Assembly: GCF_051622035.1 (NCBI RefSeq)
Contig: NC_135361.1
Location: forward strand, 27,955,205-28,019,204
Direction: 5' to 3'
DNA from: Arctopsyche grandis
Taxonomy: Eukaryota; Arthropoda; Insecta; Trichoptera; Hydropsychidae
DNA length: 64,000 nucleotides
Both the position numbers and the translations under genes were made by a program. The stretch's first letter is position 1. Every line of letters begins with the position of its first letter. The notes below the pieces were generated by a model that worked only from the letters and a program-made list of their open reading frames with translations, searched no databases and was not told where the DNA came from. Positions 21,154-64,000 of this stretch are shown here, piece by piece.

Positions 21154-21357
21154 GGTAATTGGACTATTCGTCACATCGGGGTGGTCACAAAGACAATTTT
21201 TGCCATGAAAATCGCGAATACACAATATTTGGCACTCAAGTTCTCGTTACTATGATAGTTATCGTTAGTATGATGGACTTTTCGGCTGCCAGATGTTCCG
21301 TTATAGAGATTTTAGTGACTTTGTGACGAGTAATTTGTGACCAGTAATCACCGAACC
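21154..21357. mobile_element. 204-bp MITE with 9-bp TSD (TTTAATTAT)
   Basis: It starts GGTAATTGGACTATTCGTCAC and ends GTGACCAGTAATCACCGAACC. The ends are imperfect inverted repeats sharing GTCAC. Exact 9-bp duplications TTTAATTAT lie at 21145-21153 and 21358-21366. The copy at 44636-44839 has the same length and I find only one difference (ATCGG versus ATTGG). It has no coding capacity. Confidence 0.92.
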
Positions 21358-22410
21358 TTTAATTATGTATATGATCACAATAAGTAATAGCGAAAAGCCA
21401 TATAATGAGAGGTGTGGTGTATTACAATAACTTGCTAATATTTAAATACAAGAGAACAGAAAACCGGAACTGAATCAATATTTTTTTTTACCGAACGGGA
21501 ACGAAAACCGGAAGGATTTTTTTTTATATACATAATTATGTATAATCATATCACAGTCAGACTATCACTATCGACTGCTGGATTAATACCGGTTCCGCTT
21601 AGTGACAAATGTACTTTTTTTTTTAAATAAATATCTATCCACAAAAATATTTTTTTGAAAGGTTTATTTTATTATATAAAATTTTTAGGGTAAACTCTCA
21701 GGTGTCAGTTTCGTCACTTCTATTTTGATAGCTTCGCATCAAAGGTGCGAAGGGATGTTATGTAAATATTGTGGCAATGCATTGGCGCCATCCAATAAAT
21801 ACATACAATGCGACTATTTTACAAGATTTTTTTTTAACAAATTGCAGTATTCAGATTTTTTTGTAATATGCCTAGTACAAATTGTTTCTTGAATTTTTAA
21901 TAAAAATAAATAGTAAATGACTTGATAAATATGCAGTGACAAGGATCAAGTTGTGTGTAATCTGTAAACCAGTTCCATGGGAATTTTCGAGTGTGAAATG
22001 TGACTATTTGTTCAGCTATCTACATTTTTTTGTTGAGAGTGGCACTTCTGACTTCACACTTTGCCTTTTTTGGAATCGTCGATCTTTTCAAAGTCGCTAA
22101 AGAGGGTTTGTTTATTTTTGTAGGTAAACTTTCGCTGGAAATATTTTCGTTCCCACTATCATTAGTATGCGTACGTATTTACCTAGTTATGAGCAACAAA
22201 ATAATGAAAAAAATGGTTTAAATTAAAATAAAATTTTAATTATTTAATTAATATTTTGATTTTGTTAATAGATGTCTCTAGTTCATGTTAATCAAAAAAA
22301 AAAAACTTTCATAAATTTTCTGCGAAATTAATTAAATAACCTATTTTCACTTAAATGCAAACAATAGATTAATTATAAAATATCTTAAGAACCTGAAAAA
22401 CAAATATAAA

Positions 22411-27141: not shown

Positions 27142-30100
27142 CTAATCAACTTCACCATTAGGAGTAGTCAATGCCTCATCTTCATGATACTCTAAGGATA
27201 ACACAGACGCGCGGCGTTGCTTTTTGGCTTGTCCACTCGAGCTGCACTCACTTGAATCACTCTCGTAACAGCGTTTCTTTTCTATTCCGGTTTCACTATT
27301 AGTTCTATTGTCCGATTTATTGTCTTCTACTCCGTTTAAGCCATAACATTTGTCGTTAACACTATCTACGTGTGTTCGCCTATTGGCAGTACTATCTCTA
27401 CTGTCTTCATCATTACACAACTTTATGCGTTCTGACACTTTGAGTATTAGATCAGGTTCGGAATCATACTCGTCGGCTGCCGCACCATTCGTCAGCGATG
27501 CATGGTTCGTGTCCGTGGTCCCCCGTGAGCGCAACACGGCCACCTCTTTCGTCAGCACGGCGTTCCTTTCGTGAGCGACCCGCAACTCTTGCTGTAAGAA
27601 GTATATAGTGCTTTGCATACCTTCGACGTCTTCGTCCAACTCTTGGAGGAATTCGTCCAGTTCTGAAACACCAACGACACAACAATCTCAATGTAAAATT
27701 AAACATCCACAAAACTAAACAATACGCCGTCTCATGAGTCATCAATTACTTAACATTTTACCAATGGCCAATTTAATTTGCTCTGGTATTTTATATACCC
27801 CCCTGCACAGCACATAAAATATGATAAAGCTTCATAAAAAAAAAAAAAACAACTTTGTATTAACAATCTATTCAGTAAAGATCACACAAAGGTGGAAGAT
27901 TTTTACCGTCATTCGTGAACCAAATAATTGGTACTAATTGGTTATACCGGCGCATCCGAGCATTAAGTATGCACACTTAAACATACAAAAACAAGGCAAG
28001 GCAAAACAAGGTGTATGACTTCTAGGTGTCGCAAACAGTTTTAGTATAATTACGATAAAACATTGTGGTACGGCTGTGTTGGTGAAATTGTATATACTTT
28101 ATGCTTGGACGTGCCTGTATAAACTATAAGTACCAAATATATAAGTTGGTTATCATATGAAGGCGAAAACCACGCTTAATGCATTTTCGGAAATGCGTAC
28201 GTGCGCGCATAAATCATTGTCTGCGATATTTTGAGAAAACAGTAAGCATAACGTTATTTGCACACCAAATTCAAAGTGGGGACGTTGAAACTCATGCTAT
28301 AAATATGTTCTGGCCGATAAGTGCAAATATGAACATAACACATGTTGTAAAGATATATGCAAGAGTATATTACTATATAATGGACTACATATAGTCCTAC
28401 TATGTATTTAATCAGCAAAAGCAGTCGAGTATACAGTAATTGATCACCCATAAGACTATCCGATGTATGATACGAACCTGCTTGAGACTTTTTGGCTTCT
28501 TCGCTGAAGTTCTTTTGCAACGCCAAGTCACCTTCCAATTTAGCGATACGTCCGCTGGTCGTCATCTTACCGAGATCCTCATTCTCCTGATGCAGCAGCC
28601 GACACTTTGCCATGAGTTTTTTGCCCGTGTTGGAGTCGGGCGTAAACTTCCACGCCGAAAACTCGCTCTGCGTCTCCTCGAGGCGATTCCTCGTCGTGAT
28701 GAGCTCCTGTTTCATCCTCATCACCAGCACGTTGACGGCCGGGTCCAGCATGCACGTGCGAGCGTTGCCGACGACGCCCGCCGAGCCGACCTGCGCCGAC
28801 TTCAACTCTGCAATCTGCGCCTGAAAGAAGCACCCGCAAACCCACATCAGTACGGAACGAATGTTCGAAAATCAACACCGACGAACGTCATCAAAGTGAA
28901 CATACAACATAGTCTTGAACTTCCTGCTCCTTGGCAGCGAGCCGTCTCATCAAAACCCGCTCCCGGTGCTGCGAATCGGCGAATCGTTGCTTCAATCTCT
29001 CCTCTTGTTCTTTCATCCTTTCAATAATCGCTTAAATGATAAAACAAAATTTGAGTAAAGAATTGAAATCGTCAGTTTTATAATTTATTCATATATTTTA
29101 TTATATATTATACAAACGTCGCTTATGAGTCGGTCGGAAATATTTAGCATTTCAAATATTTACATGTTATGTCTCAAGTGTTAGAAAATTTAATCGAGTT
29201 TAGCGTTACAAAACTACAATTTGATTCAACAAAAAACGTCAATTCACTTAATAAAATATTTATTGGCATCAATTCGAGTACATGTTCAGAGTTGTAATAT
29301 ATAAATAAATTTATAAGAAAGCGTAAAAAATTCAATATAAAATCTAATTAGCCTACAATATGTTTACGATGGAATGAAAAGTGTCATACAAAAAAATATG
29401 CCACGAATTCGAAAATATCACAAAACGCAAAACAACAAAGTTCAATATATACAACAACAACACGGGGAGGAAACAAATATTATTTTGAAAATGAACTTTA
29501 ATTGAAAAGCAAACTATACGAAACCAAATTACGTAGTGTAGAATTATAATAATGTCACTCGGGTGTGAAATTTTTCATCTTTTTCCTCGGCATAATCTTT
29601 AGAATTGGTTGAATTTTCCTTAGGATGTAATCGAGCTACTTTTGAAAGAAACCACATGTTGATACGTCTCAGAAACATTTCAGACGGCTCGTATGAAATA
29701 TTATGATATATGCCGTCGGAAGCGAATCAATCCAAAGATTATACCGAAGATCTAAGAAAGAGTGACATCGTCTGCGGCATAACAATAATTAATTCACTTT
29801 TCAATTCAAGTCACGAGTTGTTTACACCCCACCCCGTACAACAATATATACACTCGTATAATATATAATTGAAACCATCGGTACACAATTTTGTGACCGC
29901 CACCATAGGTAGCGTAGGGACGGTAAACTTCACACACTATGAACTCCGATTATGCATTTTCGCATACGAGATAAGCGTCGACGATAGATTCGCCGTACGT
30001 CGGTCGACATGGAAACTATCGCAGGCAAAAAAAAGCACAAATCGTCGCCGTATATATTCACCACTTTTAGCACGGTGTACTATAATAATACACACAACTG

Positions 30101-43995: not shown

Positions 43996-44169
43996 TCAAG
44001 GCCAAGTCGGTTGTTCGCCTTCTTTGACATTGCCGCCATATAGGGCGCTCTTGTCACGGAAGCGAATCATTCTCTCGGTTTCCTTAACATCTAAGAAATG
44101 ACCAAATCCAAAGCCGATAAAGGGGATGATCATCACCCAGGCTTCTCTAGTGATACCGAAGATGGCCAT
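43996..44169 (-). CDS. NDUFB1: NADH dehydrogenase subunit NDUFB1 (MNLL), 57 aa
   Basis: NDUFB1 is a small single-pass accessory subunit of mitochondrial respiratory complex I. The frame reads MAIFGITREAWVMIIPFIGF, continues GFGHFLDVKETERM and IRFRDKSALYGG, and ends EQPTWP before TGA. The pattern of one N-terminal membrane span, then GxxLDxKxxERxxxFRxKS and a C-terminal Trp matches animal NDUFB1 in order and length (human 58 aa). The ATG is one base after the stop of another short frame in the same exon, so translation would need leaky scanning, reinitiation or an alternative 5' end. No clear canonical AATAAA was seen downstream. Confidence 0.9.
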   Translation of the reverse strand: MAIFGITREAWVMIIPFIGFGFGHFLDVKETERMIRFRDKSALYGGNVKEGEQPTWP

Positions 44170-44170
44170 T

Positions 44171-44305
44171 CTATTGAATATTCGCTATCTGCTTTTGCCT
44201 CTTCCACTTCTGAGTATTCGAATAGTCGGAGTAGATCGATGAAATCGCAATCGTAGGAAATATCACGACTATTGCGTATCGCTTTATTATATTGGTAATT
44301 CCCAT
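44171..44305 (-). CDS. Unrecognised 44-aa single-pass microprotein, first ORF of the NDUFB1 exon
   Basis: The frame starts MGITNIIKRYAIVVIFPTIA, continues ISSIYSDYSNTQKWKRQKQI and stops TAG, followed by a single base and then the NDUFB1 ATG. A hydrophobic segment at residues 10-24 is preceded by Lys-Arg and followed by a polar, strongly basic tail. This resembles small inner-membrane proteins of mitochondria. A consensus 3' splice site (TTTGTTTCTCCACAG) ends at 44310, four bases before the ATG, so the ORF begins right at the start of the exon. I do not recognise the family. Its placement argues it is real rather than a chance frame, but homologues in other insects are needed to prove that. 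Confidence 0.6.
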   Translation of the reverse strand: MGITNIIKRYAIVVIFPTIAISSIYSDYSNTQKWKRQKQIANIQ

Positions 44306-44311
44306 GAGTCT

Positions 44312-44635
44312 GTGGAGAAACAAAAAATAATGATTATGCATTGTTGTTTTCAGGTTATGAATGAATATGTCACGGACGTATCGAGTATGGAATGGCTATT
44401 TGTTGACGTTTCGACCAATTTCTAGATATGAATGCAATACGGTGCAACTGACAAATAATATATTCAAGGAGTTGGAGACGTCAGATGATGCAGAGAGGGG
44501 TGGAAGGGGGCAGAGGACTTCCTCACTTGTTAGATAACAGCGGCGGACCTCACTCCACCACTCCAGCAAATGTGATCGAAATTTCGAGATCTTAATACTG
44601 GATACTACGGCCATGGATTACGATATATTTGACAA
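44312..44635 (-). other. Intron and possible 5' exon of the NDUFB1 transcript
   Basis: Upstream of the NDUFB1 exon on the minus strand, a candidate donor ACAA|GTGAGG lies near 44526-44535. An open frame (44396-44614, starting MAVVSSIKIS) crosses it. Joining that frame to the NDUFB1 exon gives an early stop, so it is more likely 5' UTR or unrelated. The region ends where the 204-bp MITE is inserted. Confidence 0.3.
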
Positions 44636-44839
44636 GGTAATTGGACTATTCGTCACATTGGGGTGGTCACAAAGACAATTTTTGCCATGAAAATCGCGAA
44701 TACACAATATTTGGCACTCAAGTTCTCGTTACTATGATAGTTATCGTTAGTATGATGGACTTTTCGGCTGCCAGATGTTCCGTTATAGAGATTTTAGTGA
44801 CTTTGTGACGAGTAATTTGTGACCAGTAATCACCGAACC
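44636..44839. mobile_element. 204-bp MITE with 9-bp TSD (ATTTGACAA)
   Basis: Almost identical to the element at 21154-21357, same length. Exact 9-bp duplications ATTTGACAA lie at 44627-44635 and 44840-44848. Near identity of the two copies points to recent movement. Confidence 0.93.
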
Positions 44840-44848
44840 ATTTGACAA

Positions 44849-45019
44849 GGTTCGGTGATTATTCCGCAAAAAGCGGTCTCGCGCACGTCACGAAAATCTC
44901 AATCACGGTACATCTGGCACCCAAAAACTCACGAAATATTGTACTAACGAGATCTCGAGTGCCAGATATTTCGTATTCGCGATTTTCTTGGTAACGATTT
45001 GCGCAATAATCCTTTTACC
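44849..45019. mobile_element. 171-bp MITE of the same 9-bp-TSD family, adjacent copy
   Basis: It starts GGTTCGGTGATTATTCCGC and ends GCAATAATCCTTTTACC, the same terminal GGT...ACC and GATTATT signature. Its left flank is ATTTGACAA (shared with the neighbour) and its right flank is GTTTGAAAA, matching in seven of nine positions. This fits an older insertion whose duplication has drifted, with the 204-bp element landing beside it later. The body has a CTCACGAAATATT/AGTGCCAGATATTTCGT palindrome. Confidence 0.75.
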
Positions 45020-46134: not shown

Positions 46135-47302
46135 AGGTCTGACCGCACTATACGACAACCGAACGATCCTTCACTTCACAACAGTACGCGACAGTCGCAT
46201 GGCGTAGAACGACGCCTTGCGTCAAAGTTGACTTTTCGACCAACTTTGACGCAAGGTGTCGTTATTCTCCTTCTTCATATCGTGACTTTGAAATAGCATG
46301 TAGCCATAATCTTTTGTGTTTTCTCGATTGTTCTTCCTCGCATATCAAATATACTATAATAGCGTCTGTTGCGTCCATTTTGCTCCGAGGTATCGAACGA
46401 ATGATTGACATAATCTGCCGTTCAAGTGCGGTTTACCTAATATTGTCGCACACTGTTGTGGAGTGTCGGATTGTTCGGTTGTCGTATAGAGGTCTGTTCA
46501 TACTTAACAGCACTGCACGACTCCGTTTCAAATATGTCATTTTATTACATTTCTATTCATATCTACCTACACGTCGCGGTCACGTCACGCTTACAGCACT
46601 TTGGCCGAGTGCAAGGCAAAATCGGCTTACTTATACATTACAGGCCATGACGATACGGCGCAATATTGGTTACGTCGTATTGTCGAGTACTTACAATATG
46701 AATGCATACACGTGCATTCGTAGCTACGCGTCAGAATACAAGTCAGCAAAAATGTTTCGGCGTTTATCGAACGAAAAATTATGTATAATCGCGTTGTTGT
46801 TGGAAGAAGAAGCTCAAGAAGGCAATAAAAAAGCACGGAGGCTATTTGATGTGCATCCCATGTTAAAAAATAGAAAAACCGAAGGAGAGTTTTGGACACT
46901 GTATATGGAGCTTGTGGATGATGGACAAAAATATTTCCGTAAAAAAATAATTTTTTTTTTAAATATTGGCGCCAAAACCATGTTGAAAGATTGAACAGCT
47001 GTCAACTGTCACTATTGATAATTGGTCCAAAACATCAAAGCGGCAGACTCATGGCACGTAATTTGCGTGTATATATCTCCACGATGGCCAAAAAGACGGA
47101 TACAATACGTTGACGGATGTTGCTGTAAGGTATGAACAGGAAATGTCGGGTACTGCTGTAAGCCTGCCGTGGCGTAAACGTGACGGTTGAAATGAACATA
47201 CCCATACAAAATGTACCAAATAATACTTTTCGTACGGCCGGATACCTGCTGAAGTCGGTTCGTGCCGACTAGGTATGAACAGACCTTAGTGCGGTCAGAT
47301 TT
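46135..47302 (+). mobile_element. Harbinger-type element with a transposase N-terminal remnant
   Basis: It directly abuts the previous element and shares its TAA. The left end AGGTCTGACCGCACTATACG matches the complement of the right end (AAATCTGACCGCACTAAGG), with TAA again at 47303-47305. A frame at 46752-46994 reads MFRRLSNEKLCIIALLLEEE, then VHPMLKNRKTEGEFWTLYMEL and VDDGQKYFRK. This resembles the N-terminal region of PIF/Harbinger transposases and stops before the DDE domain. It is an internally deleted copy; fragments of the same element lie at 31.24 and 32.2 kb. Confidence 0.8.
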
Positions 47303-48512: not shown

Positions 48513-48860
48513 AATGAAAAAACTGAAAAAATGAAAAAAATGAAAAAAATGAAAAACTGAAAAAATGAAAAAAATGAAAAAACTGAAAAAATGAAAAAAC
48601 TGAAAAAATGAAAAAACTGAAAAAATGAAAAAAATGAAAAAACTGAAAAAATGAAAAAAATGAAAAAACTGAAAAAATGAAAAAAATGAAAAAACTGAAA
48701 AAATGAAAAAAATGAAAAAACTGAAAAAATGAAAAAAATGAAAAAAATGAAAAAACTGAAAAAATGAAAAAAATGAAAAAACTGAAAAAATGAAAAAAAT
48801 GAAAAAACTGAAAAAATGAAAAAAATTAAAAAACTGAAAAATATGAAAAAAAAAAAAAAT
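48513..48860. repeat. Poly-purine array of TGAAAAAA/CTGAAAAAA units
   Basis: About 340 bases of the units TGAAAAAA and CTGAAAAAA in higher-order patterns, purine-rich on the plus strand. The minus-strand reading gives long Phe-rich frames that are repeat translations. It directly abuts the GC-rich hairpin array. Confidence 0.95.
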
Positions 48861-61652: not shown

Positions 61653-62802
61653 GCCTAGAGCCTCACATTTTCTTTGAGAGGTCCCGAATACCATTTGACT
61701 AAAACTAATTATAGTTGGTAGTCCTCCCTGTTTATATAGTAAAAGTTGAGCGAATTCATATAACATGAAAAAATATCATTAGTTATATTTAGGCTAAAAA
61801 AGACAATTTTTTTTTTTTGTAGTTATTTACAATTTCGAGAAAACGTGTAATTTTTAGTTAATAAAATAATTCTGACGCAATTAAAAATACTTTCGAAAAA
61901 TGAACAAAAACTTTTTTAATAAAAAAACTAAAAAACCTATTTCAAATAAATATTTTTAACTAATAATTTGTTTTTGAAAAGCATTAGTGTTTAAATAAAA
62001 TAAAATTACATACATATGTACAATAAATATTTTATCAAAGAAATATTCAAATTAATTGGTTTCAATAACTCGAAATAATTTAAAAAAAAACATATCACTT
62101 ACAAATGTCGAGACCGCATTTATCACCAAAATACACAGATATTTTTTAAAAACCATGAAAGCGCGATCAGTGATCGATACCGGGTACAAATCATAATTTT
62201 TTTTCTGGAAAATTTTATTTATAAAAAAAGGAAAGATTGACTGAATACATTACGTCTGTATTTTAAGCCTCCAATGGTAGTTCCGGTTCACATATGTATG
62301 TTTTATCAAACTTTTAATCGTTTGCTCAAAACAGTCGATGGTGAGATTGCCAAATTCTTACAAGAGGATGATTGAATGTAATAAATATTAATATATAATA
62401 AGTTGCATACGAATTACAAATTAACGTTGTAAAATTATATAGACGTTTGTTTGCTTGTTTTGTGTTTTACGTCATAGGTCTGCTCAAACTGGTACGCGTG
62501 CGTTTTATGTTAATGTGTGTGTATTGCGAGTTAATTTGTTTGAGTTTGATTCGGAATGTGTTTGGTCAATGTTACCATGTGTGCGTTTGTTTGGAAATGT
62601 GTAGGTATCGATTGTTCTAATTGTAAACAGATCTGCAAAGCAGACCCAACCTACACAGACGTAGGAGAAGGATTTTGGAAGGGTTCGGAGCCCATGTTCA
62701 ATTTTTTTTAACTTTCATCTACTCGAGTAACGCCGGGCGATTCGGCAAGTGCACAATATATAATATATACATGTATTAATTTGACTATTTTTGTCATTAC
62801 AG
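61653..62802. other. Intron / upstream sequence of the Regnase-type gene
   Basis: A+T-rich sequence with no transposon ends recognised. It runs into the polypyrimidine tract and acceptor TTTTTGTCATTACAG just before the exon at 62803. Confidence 0.5.
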
Positions 62803-64000
62803 AGTGATGTCGACGCCTTCAGCGCAGCAATTATCAACAAATCGAAAGGTGCTATGGCCCTAGAGACCAATGAGGATTCTAGTTATGATTCCGACTTCGA
62901 GACGGACGAGACAAACACGTCGCATGCGGACATTTCACGTACGCCGAGCAACACGATTTCGCATCCGAACGCCTCCAGATGCTCCTCCACCGGCCTCTCG
63001 TCCATGCATCACGATGTGTCTCGCACCGTGAGCGACACCCTCGGCGAGGAGTTCGCCGAGTACGTCAACACCGATGCCGCTAGTCTGGCCCAAAATGACG
63101 TCGACAAGGTCACACTGCACTCGACGTGCAAGTCTGCCGACGACGACACCATCTTGTCGTCCAAATCTTCGAACTACTCGTCCAGAGTCGAGTTCGGTCT
63201 CAAGTTGGGATATTCCGAGCGACTCGTCCAGACGGCTCTGCAGAAGCTGGGACCGAATCCAAGTCAGAACGAATTACTTGGTGAACTGATCAAGTTGGGA
63301 GCGCAAACATCTAGATCTATAGAAGCCGTCACTACCACGGCCATCAACGATGTCGCATCATCTAGTCATCTCTCCAATCAAGAAAACTCTCCAGTACAAT
63401 TAAGGAACATCATTATAGATGGCAGTAATGTAGCAATGAGGTAATTACATTGATTTGAATATATATATATAGAGTCACAGACTTTAAAATTATACTATAA
63501 GACTGGCAAATTACTATGTTCTTTTCCGTAGCTGATTTATATTATTGATTTATTTTCTGTTTTGTAGCCATGGCAATAAAGAAATATTTTCATGTCGAGG
63601 GATCAAAATATGCGTCGATTGGTTTTTGTCTCGGGGACATAAAGAAATTATTGTATTTGTACCAAAATGGAGGAAAGAATCTAGCAGGTATTGTTCTTAT
63701 GATTTTGTGCTATTTTTTCAACTATATTTTTCGGTTTGATAATGTGTTTGTATTGGATTTCAGACCTGATCATCCTATATCAGAACAAGAAATTTTATAC
63801 GAATTGGAAAGGGAGAGATTATTAGTATTTACGCCGAGTAGATTAGTCGGAGGGAAACGTCTGGTTTGTTACGACGATCGTTATGTATTGAAACTGGCCG
63901 CTGAAACTGAAGGGATCGTCGTATCGAACGACAATTATAGAGATTTAGTTCAAGAGAGTTCAGATTTCCGAAAAGTTGTCGAGGAAAGAATCCTGATGTA
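62803..64000 (+). CDS. ZC3H12A-like: Regnase-type (ZC3H12/MCPIP) endoribonuclease, 3' part beyond the window
   Basis: Regnase/MCPIP proteins cut stem-loops in mRNA 3' UTRs and control transcript decay. Exons seen are 62803-63440, 63568-63687 and 63764-64000 (continues past the edge), joined through split codons AG|C and AG|A. Order: an acidic, Ser/Thr-rich N-terminal stretch ([12 protein letters not shown]...); a UBA-like domain ([16 protein letters not shown]..., [11 protein letters not shown]) typical of the family; then the NYN/PIN nuclease domain starting [16 protein letters not shown], with [19 protein letters not shown] and CYDDRYV. The acidic catalytic residues in IDGS, YDDR and SND are all present. 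The CCCH zinc finger would lie beyond 64000. Which of the ZC3H12A-D paralogues this represents cannot be told; insects usually have one. Confidence 0.93.

Follow-up and report, generated by a model that had tools for sequence, protein, structure and literature searches.

A small membrane-peptide reading frame one base upstream of NDUFB1 in Arctopsyche grandis, a probable local version of a known arthropod arrangement

Layout of the NDUFB1 exon

The window, a stretch of 64,000 nucleotides of Arctopsyche grandis DNA analysed here as a whole, carries on its minus strand a short exon in which two small reading frames directly follow each other (Table 1). The downstream frame, ORF2, is NDUFB1. It matches the Pfam family of the MNLL subunit with an E-value of 1.4e-17 and 63.5 bits, against a curated cut-off of 27, and the match spans positions 5-58 of the 58 positions of the profile. 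Among solved chains, its closest relative is 8ba0_f (E 3.5e-14), which we take to be the fly complex I chain, followed by chain 5lnk_y (E 2.7e-10), presumably the sheep one. A search of the viral and genome contig collections, prokaryotic or viral in content, gave no confirmed relative of NDUFB1, as expected there.

Table 1. Features of the two-frame exon and its 5' border, in window positions
Feature	Positions	Strand	Description
Splice-acceptor-like site	44310..44333	-	Pyrimidine tract ending CAG, directly 5' of the exon; from sequence
ORF1	44171..44305	-	44-residue single-pass membrane peptide MGITNIIKRYAIVVIFPTIAISSIYSDYSNTQKWKRQKQIANIQ (predicted); from sequence and single-sequence model
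Spacer, one base (A)	44170..44170	-	Between the ORF1 stop and the NDUFB1 start
ORF2 = NDUFB1 (complex I MNLL subunit)	43996..44169	-	57 residues; PF08040

The acceptor region, ttattttttgtttctccacag, holds 14 pyrimidines in the 16 positions of its scored stretch and has its AG at 44311-44310, the exon running from 44309. ORF1 opens with the ATG at 44305-44303, continues for 44 sense codons and stops with the TAG at 44173-44171, while NDUFB1 extends from the ATG at 44169-44167 to the TGA at 43998-43996 in a different reading frame. These coordinates, together with the PF08040 match, confirm what the original prediction had described, namely a 44-codon frame placed after an acceptor and followed by TAG, A and the ATG of NDUFB1. 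In an unspliced reading, the ORF1 frame reaches an ATG at 44341 and encodes 56 residues, the 12 added residues being the translation of the pyrimidine tract. From the genomic DNA, we infer that both frames lie in one exon and are carried by one mRNA. Six donor-like sites are found upstream, and they do not single out a 5' exon. The sequence TTAYRTAA, which we take to be the motif of insect nuclear respiratory genes, occurs 16 times in the window against 14.3 expected and has zero matches between 43062 and 50418; the promoter was not located by this motif.

Several other features occur in the window. A fold-back element (44670-45000) stands some 360 bases upstream of the exon. Its halves match in reverse with 72% identity over 327 bases, and for one of them a 99.4% identical copy of 173 bases exists at 21188-21360, pointing to a small inverted-repeat transposon that was active recently. 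The gene for WTAP / fl(2)d, a component of the RNA-methylation complex, lies on the minus strand at 27142-28871, with PF17098 matched at 5.3e-42 on 28254-28871; the part at 27142-27687 was assigned to it by eye, Pfam giving there a sub-threshold DUF1389. On the plus strand, a Zc3h12a/Regnase-like RNase gene (62785-63998; UBA_6 1.2e-19, RNase_Zc3h12a 4.2e-29) continues past the window edge, and a stop-free frame of 283 codons without Pfam match occupies 46143-46994, a region that also holds a 46-base inverted repeat (46148-46193 and 46444-46489). Finally, the long open frames of low complexity seen on the minus strand at 48513-48860 come from a long array of AATGAAAAA-type repeats, which is, in our view, not a gene.

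The ORF1 peptide and its candidate relatives

The ORF1 product has one hydrophobic stretch after Lys8-Arg9 and a basic tail, with a net charge of +5, which bears out the earlier description of a hydrophobic segment following Lys-Arg and ending in basic residues. Its structure, modelled from the single sequence, is predicted as one helix over residues 3-43 with a mean pLDDT of 80. A search of the genome (475.7 Mb, 189 contigs) with ORF1 gives one match at E <= 0.001, which is ORF1 itself. No Pfam family matches it at E up to 10 with the HMMER filters on, and the matches in NCBIfam all stay far under the curated cut-offs. Among the solved chains of the PDB, ORF1 finds nothing at E up to 10, whereas NDUFB1 readily finds the fly chain. 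The ORF1 region gave no confirmed relative in the genome and viral contig collections (bacteria, archaea and viral contigs), a miss that was expected and has little weight. The peptide is predicted to be single-pass and is probably translated, mitochondrial and co-expressed with NDUFB1.

The length of ORF1 by itself is not significant. Indeed, 6% of random 44-codon stretches are free of stops over the whole window and 10% in the local flank. Its position is more telling: among the 2170 ATGs of the window, 36 are preceded, at 0-10 nt, by the end of an ATG-started frame of at least 40 codons, a count made on unspliced frames and including the NDUFB1 locus. The G+C content of ORF1 reaches 0.51 at third codon positions, against 0.29 at first and 0.33 at second positions, and among 129 ATG-started frames with lengths of 38-60 codons, 5 show an excess as large, real genes being left in this comparison set. 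A codon-usage score trained on the exons of the window brings no support, since ORF1 is equalled or surpassed by 69 of the same 129 frames; the score of NDUFB1 itself is about zero.

ORF1 was compared with ten small human mitochondrial or membrane proteins, PET100, SMIM12, COX14, SMIM20, PIGBOS1, mitoregulin, STMP1, UQCC5, UQCC6 and NDUFC1, with one sequence for each, all of which fell in the expected Pfam families. UQCC5 and UQCC6 are presumably the proteins also called SMIM4 and C12orf73/Brawnin. None of the ten reaches the 5% level against local shuffles. The top raw scores are those of SMIM12 (30) and PET100 (28), and the shuffle ranks are led by SMIM12 (7-8%) and PIGBOS1 (13-15%), with PET100 at 26-28%. 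The score with COX14 is 25, reached by 31% of local shuffles, and the corresponding Pfam family (PF14880) does not match ORF1.

Two of these candidates bear a likeness to ORF1. PET100 (PF09803) shares with it a short N-terminal helix and an I-x-R ... F-P pattern, and the genome's own PET100, an 82-residue frame, gives with ORF1 a score of 31 that is reached by 102 of 2000 local shuffles. In SMIM12 (UPF0767, PF15990), the segment VVRTYAPYVTFP of the human protein resembles IIKRYAIVVIFP of ORF1, at the shuffle rank given above. However, ORF1 is not the orthologue of either protein, because the genome has a separate gene for each. PET100 lies at G000:C6:12497409-12497618 (E 2.1e-19), and the genome search with PF09803 gave 7 matches at E up to 10, one of them above the cut-off and none of them ORF1. 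SMIM12 lies in two pieces at G000:C6:18866985-18867303 (best E 1.5e-17), and the search with PF15990 gave 2 matches at E up to 10, again with one above the cut-off and ORF1 not among them.

A separate likeness was seen between human SMIM12 and human NDUFB1. Their first helices align ungapped over 18 residues with a score of 39, which is reached by 0.5% of 1000 local shuffles, many pairs having been tried, and human SMIM12 scores 7.3 bits against the mammalian NDUFB1 profile. No such match was seen with the NDUFB1 of the window or of the fly. The first-helix likeness is a weak hint that the two human proteins may have a common origin.

A published counterpart in the fly and the translation of both frames

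An upstream frame of NDUFB1 was already catalogued in the fly. Hayden and Bosco (2008) searched fly transcripts and ESTs for upstream ORFs encoding conserved peptides, a set which they framed as putatively regulatory (PMC2276209). The first row of their Table 1 is CG18624, the MNLL subunit, with a Ka/Ks of 0.11 for the upstream ORF and 0.06 for the main ORF, both at p<0.0001; the upstream ORF has 54 residues in their Table 2, and the most distant EST carrying the pair, CV448373, comes from the tick Boophilus microplus. The fly upstream frame belongs to transcript FBtr0071140. To our knowledge, no function has been assigned to the CG18624 upstream peptide. CG18624 is absent from the main texts of the FlyBase paper on dicistronic and exceptional gene models (PMC4528330), of the sloth1/sloth2 paper (PMC9681215) and of the fly embryo Poly-Ribo-Seq paper (PMC7260771). 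Within the open-licence literature, PMC2276209 is the sole report of the pair known to us, to which other papers and supplements may add.

In both the fly and Arctopsyche, NDUFB1 is preceded on its own strand by a small separate frame, of 54 and 44 residues, respectively. The two pairs differ in that the fly pair was drawn from transcripts and ESTs, whereas that of Arctopsyche comes from genomic DNA alone. Judging from its position, ORF1 would be orthologous to the CG18624 upstream peptide, and the difference in size leaves room for a longer N-terminus encoded in an upstream exon as well as for a real difference. The association of a small upstream frame with NDUFB1 seems to be ancient in arthropods. 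The description of the peptide as an undescribed partner of NDUFB1 was therefore too strong: the layout was reported in 2008 and is not new.

The two start codons of the exon are of unequal quality. The context of the ORF1 start, ACTC-ATG-G, is weak, with C at -3 although G stands at +4, and that of NDUFB1, TAGA-ATG-G, is strong, with A at -3 and G at +4. The exon contains zero ATGs in any frame between 44305 and 44169, a feature that is weak alone as its probability by chance over 134 nt is 0.12 in this window. Comparable arrangements have been studied elsewhere. In the fly, the sloth1 start (ACACATG) and the sloth2 start (CAAAATG) belong to frames 5 nt apart, and reporters yield more of the second product when the first start is impaired and less when it is strengthened (PMC9681215). 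Algal bicistrons likewise combine weak first starts with scarce intervening start codons, and leaky scanning is supported there by mutation; the same source notes the fly genes stoned and Snapin, with AUG-poor upstream ORFs and leaky scanning (PMC11892635).

The sloth1/sloth2 pair resembles the present one in several respects, as it consists of two small proteins encoded a few bases apart on one mRNA (presumed as such in Arctopsyche), with a weak first and a strong second start and a link to a respiratory complex. It also provides the precedent for animal dicistrons encoding small mitochondrial proteins that the original prediction had invoked. The genes are nevertheless others, for complex III assembly factors, the spacing is 5 nt, and translation and function are experimentally supported for that pair, whereas ORF1 and NDUFB1 are known from DNA. 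Sloth1 and sloth2 are orthologues of human SMIM4 and C12orf73/Brawnin (PMC9681215), and ORF1 has no resemblance to these human proteins, with scores reached by 93% and 67% of local shuffles.

Because the fly CG18624 peptide is conserved under purifying selection, the pair occurs in a tick EST and sloth1/sloth2 offer a precedent, it is very likely that a small membrane peptide and NDUFB1 form a dicistron here. This part of the earlier claim stands, the sharing of one mRNA being deduced from the genomic layout.

Alternative explanations and possible roles of the peptide

The NDUFB1 mRNA would have a conserved two-frame structure, of which the exon would be the Arctopsyche version. ORF1 would encode a 44-residue single-helix membrane peptide, probably mitochondrial; ribosomes skipping its weak ATG by leaky scanning would meet no other ATG before the strong start of NDUFB1; and the peptide may help in assembly or regulation without being a fixed subunit of complex I. 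To the reading made of the conserved two-frame mRNA, the mitochondrial ORF1 peptide and leaky scanning, we give a probability of about 0.78.

The one-base spacing had led to the proposal that NDUFB1 is translated by reinitiation or by stop-start coupling across TAG-A-ATG. Leaky scanning would fit better because the first start is weak, the second is strong and no ATG intervenes, and the sloth1/sloth2 pair, with a spacing of 5 nt, behaved as a leaky-scanning pair in reporters (PMC9681215); reinitiation or coupling is thus unlikely. That ORF1 is an untranslated 5' leader, open by chance, would agree with the 6-10% of random stretches that stay open over 44 codons and with a codon usage that does not speak for coding. 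This is, however, very unlikely in view of the conserved peptide published upstream of the same gene (fly CG18624, PMC2276209) and of the placement, third-position G+C and start contexts of ORF1. Another explanation is a mainly cis-acting upstream ORF that adjusts how much NDUFB1 is made, for instance through ribosome capture, and whose released peptide has no function. An upstream frame with a weak start suits such a role, as does the putatively regulatory frame in which PMC2276209 presents its conserved upstream ORFs, but the strong purifying selection on the fly peptide (the Ka/Ks of 0.11 in PMC2276209) and the design of a transmembrane segment with a basic tail over 44 residues suit a working protein better than a pure ribosome trap. 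We regard the mainly cis-acting explanation as rather improbable.

A further explanation derives ORF1 from NDUFB1 itself: it would be a tandem duplicate that has diverged but stayed on the shared mRNA, an origin of the kind proposed for sloth1/sloth2. The best of 14 pairwise scores, 34, is indeed obtained with sheep NDUFB1 and is reached by 0.8% of 1000 local shuffles; the alignment starts near the first Met, runs for 31 residues without a gap and pairs Pro with Pro and Tyr-x-Asp with Tyr-x-Asp. Human NDUFB1 scores 30 (1.7% of local shuffles), and an insect-only profile, built from the window and fly sequences, places ORF1 above all ten controls, although 104 of 3000 local shuffles reach its score. 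Fly NDUFB1, in contrast, gives nothing (81% of shuffles), and the score with the window's own NDUFB1 is reached by 6.3% of shuffles. With a five-sequence NDUFB1 profile, ORF1 obtains 1.7 bits, a score that 147 of 3000 local shuffles attain and that STMP1 and NDUFC1 exceed, and a mammal-only profile gives a score reached by 125 of 3000, with SMIM12, STMP1, MTLN, PET100 and UQCC5 higher. In addition, the Pfam MNLL family does not match ORF1, which does not carry the conserved NDUFB1 tail. The resemblance is a lead, not a result, and the tandem origin seems quite unlikely. The more far-reaching version would make ORF1 an assembly helper dedicated, throughout arthropods, to the NDUFB1-containing part of complex I, produced in a tuned ratio from the shared mRNA and descended from a tandem NDUFB1 copy that lost the conserved tail; it is equally unlikely. 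If true, it would parallel sloth1/sloth2 and could explain why the peptide, though conserved, is not found in the finished enzyme.

Under the preferred reading, that of a conserved two-frame mRNA translated by leaky scanning, the peptide may have a functional link to the respiratory chain. The possibility that it serves as a stoichiometric subunit of complex I, one form of the functionally linked partner proposed at the outset, is disfavoured because a fly complex I structure paper describes no accessory subunit found in the fly enzyme alone. Another paper lists 29 supernumerary subunits, which all have mammalian counterparts, NDUFC1 and NDUFA2 being absent (PMC9977279), and the solved chains searched with ORF1 gave no match. 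Such a role is thus unlikely if ORF1 is the orthologue of the fly peptide, and ORF1 may rather encode an assembly factor, a regulator or a protein functioning outside complex I.

The discovery value of the locus is modest because the fly pair was catalogued in 2008. It nevertheless adds a probable further insect to the arrangement, in which the 1-nt spacing and the disposition of the starts make leaky scanning directly testable. The upstream peptide, carried by the NDUFB1 mRNA in flies, in a tick and apparently also in Arctopsyche, offers a direct way towards either a respiratory-chain factor that has been overlooked or a control of complex I at the level of translation.
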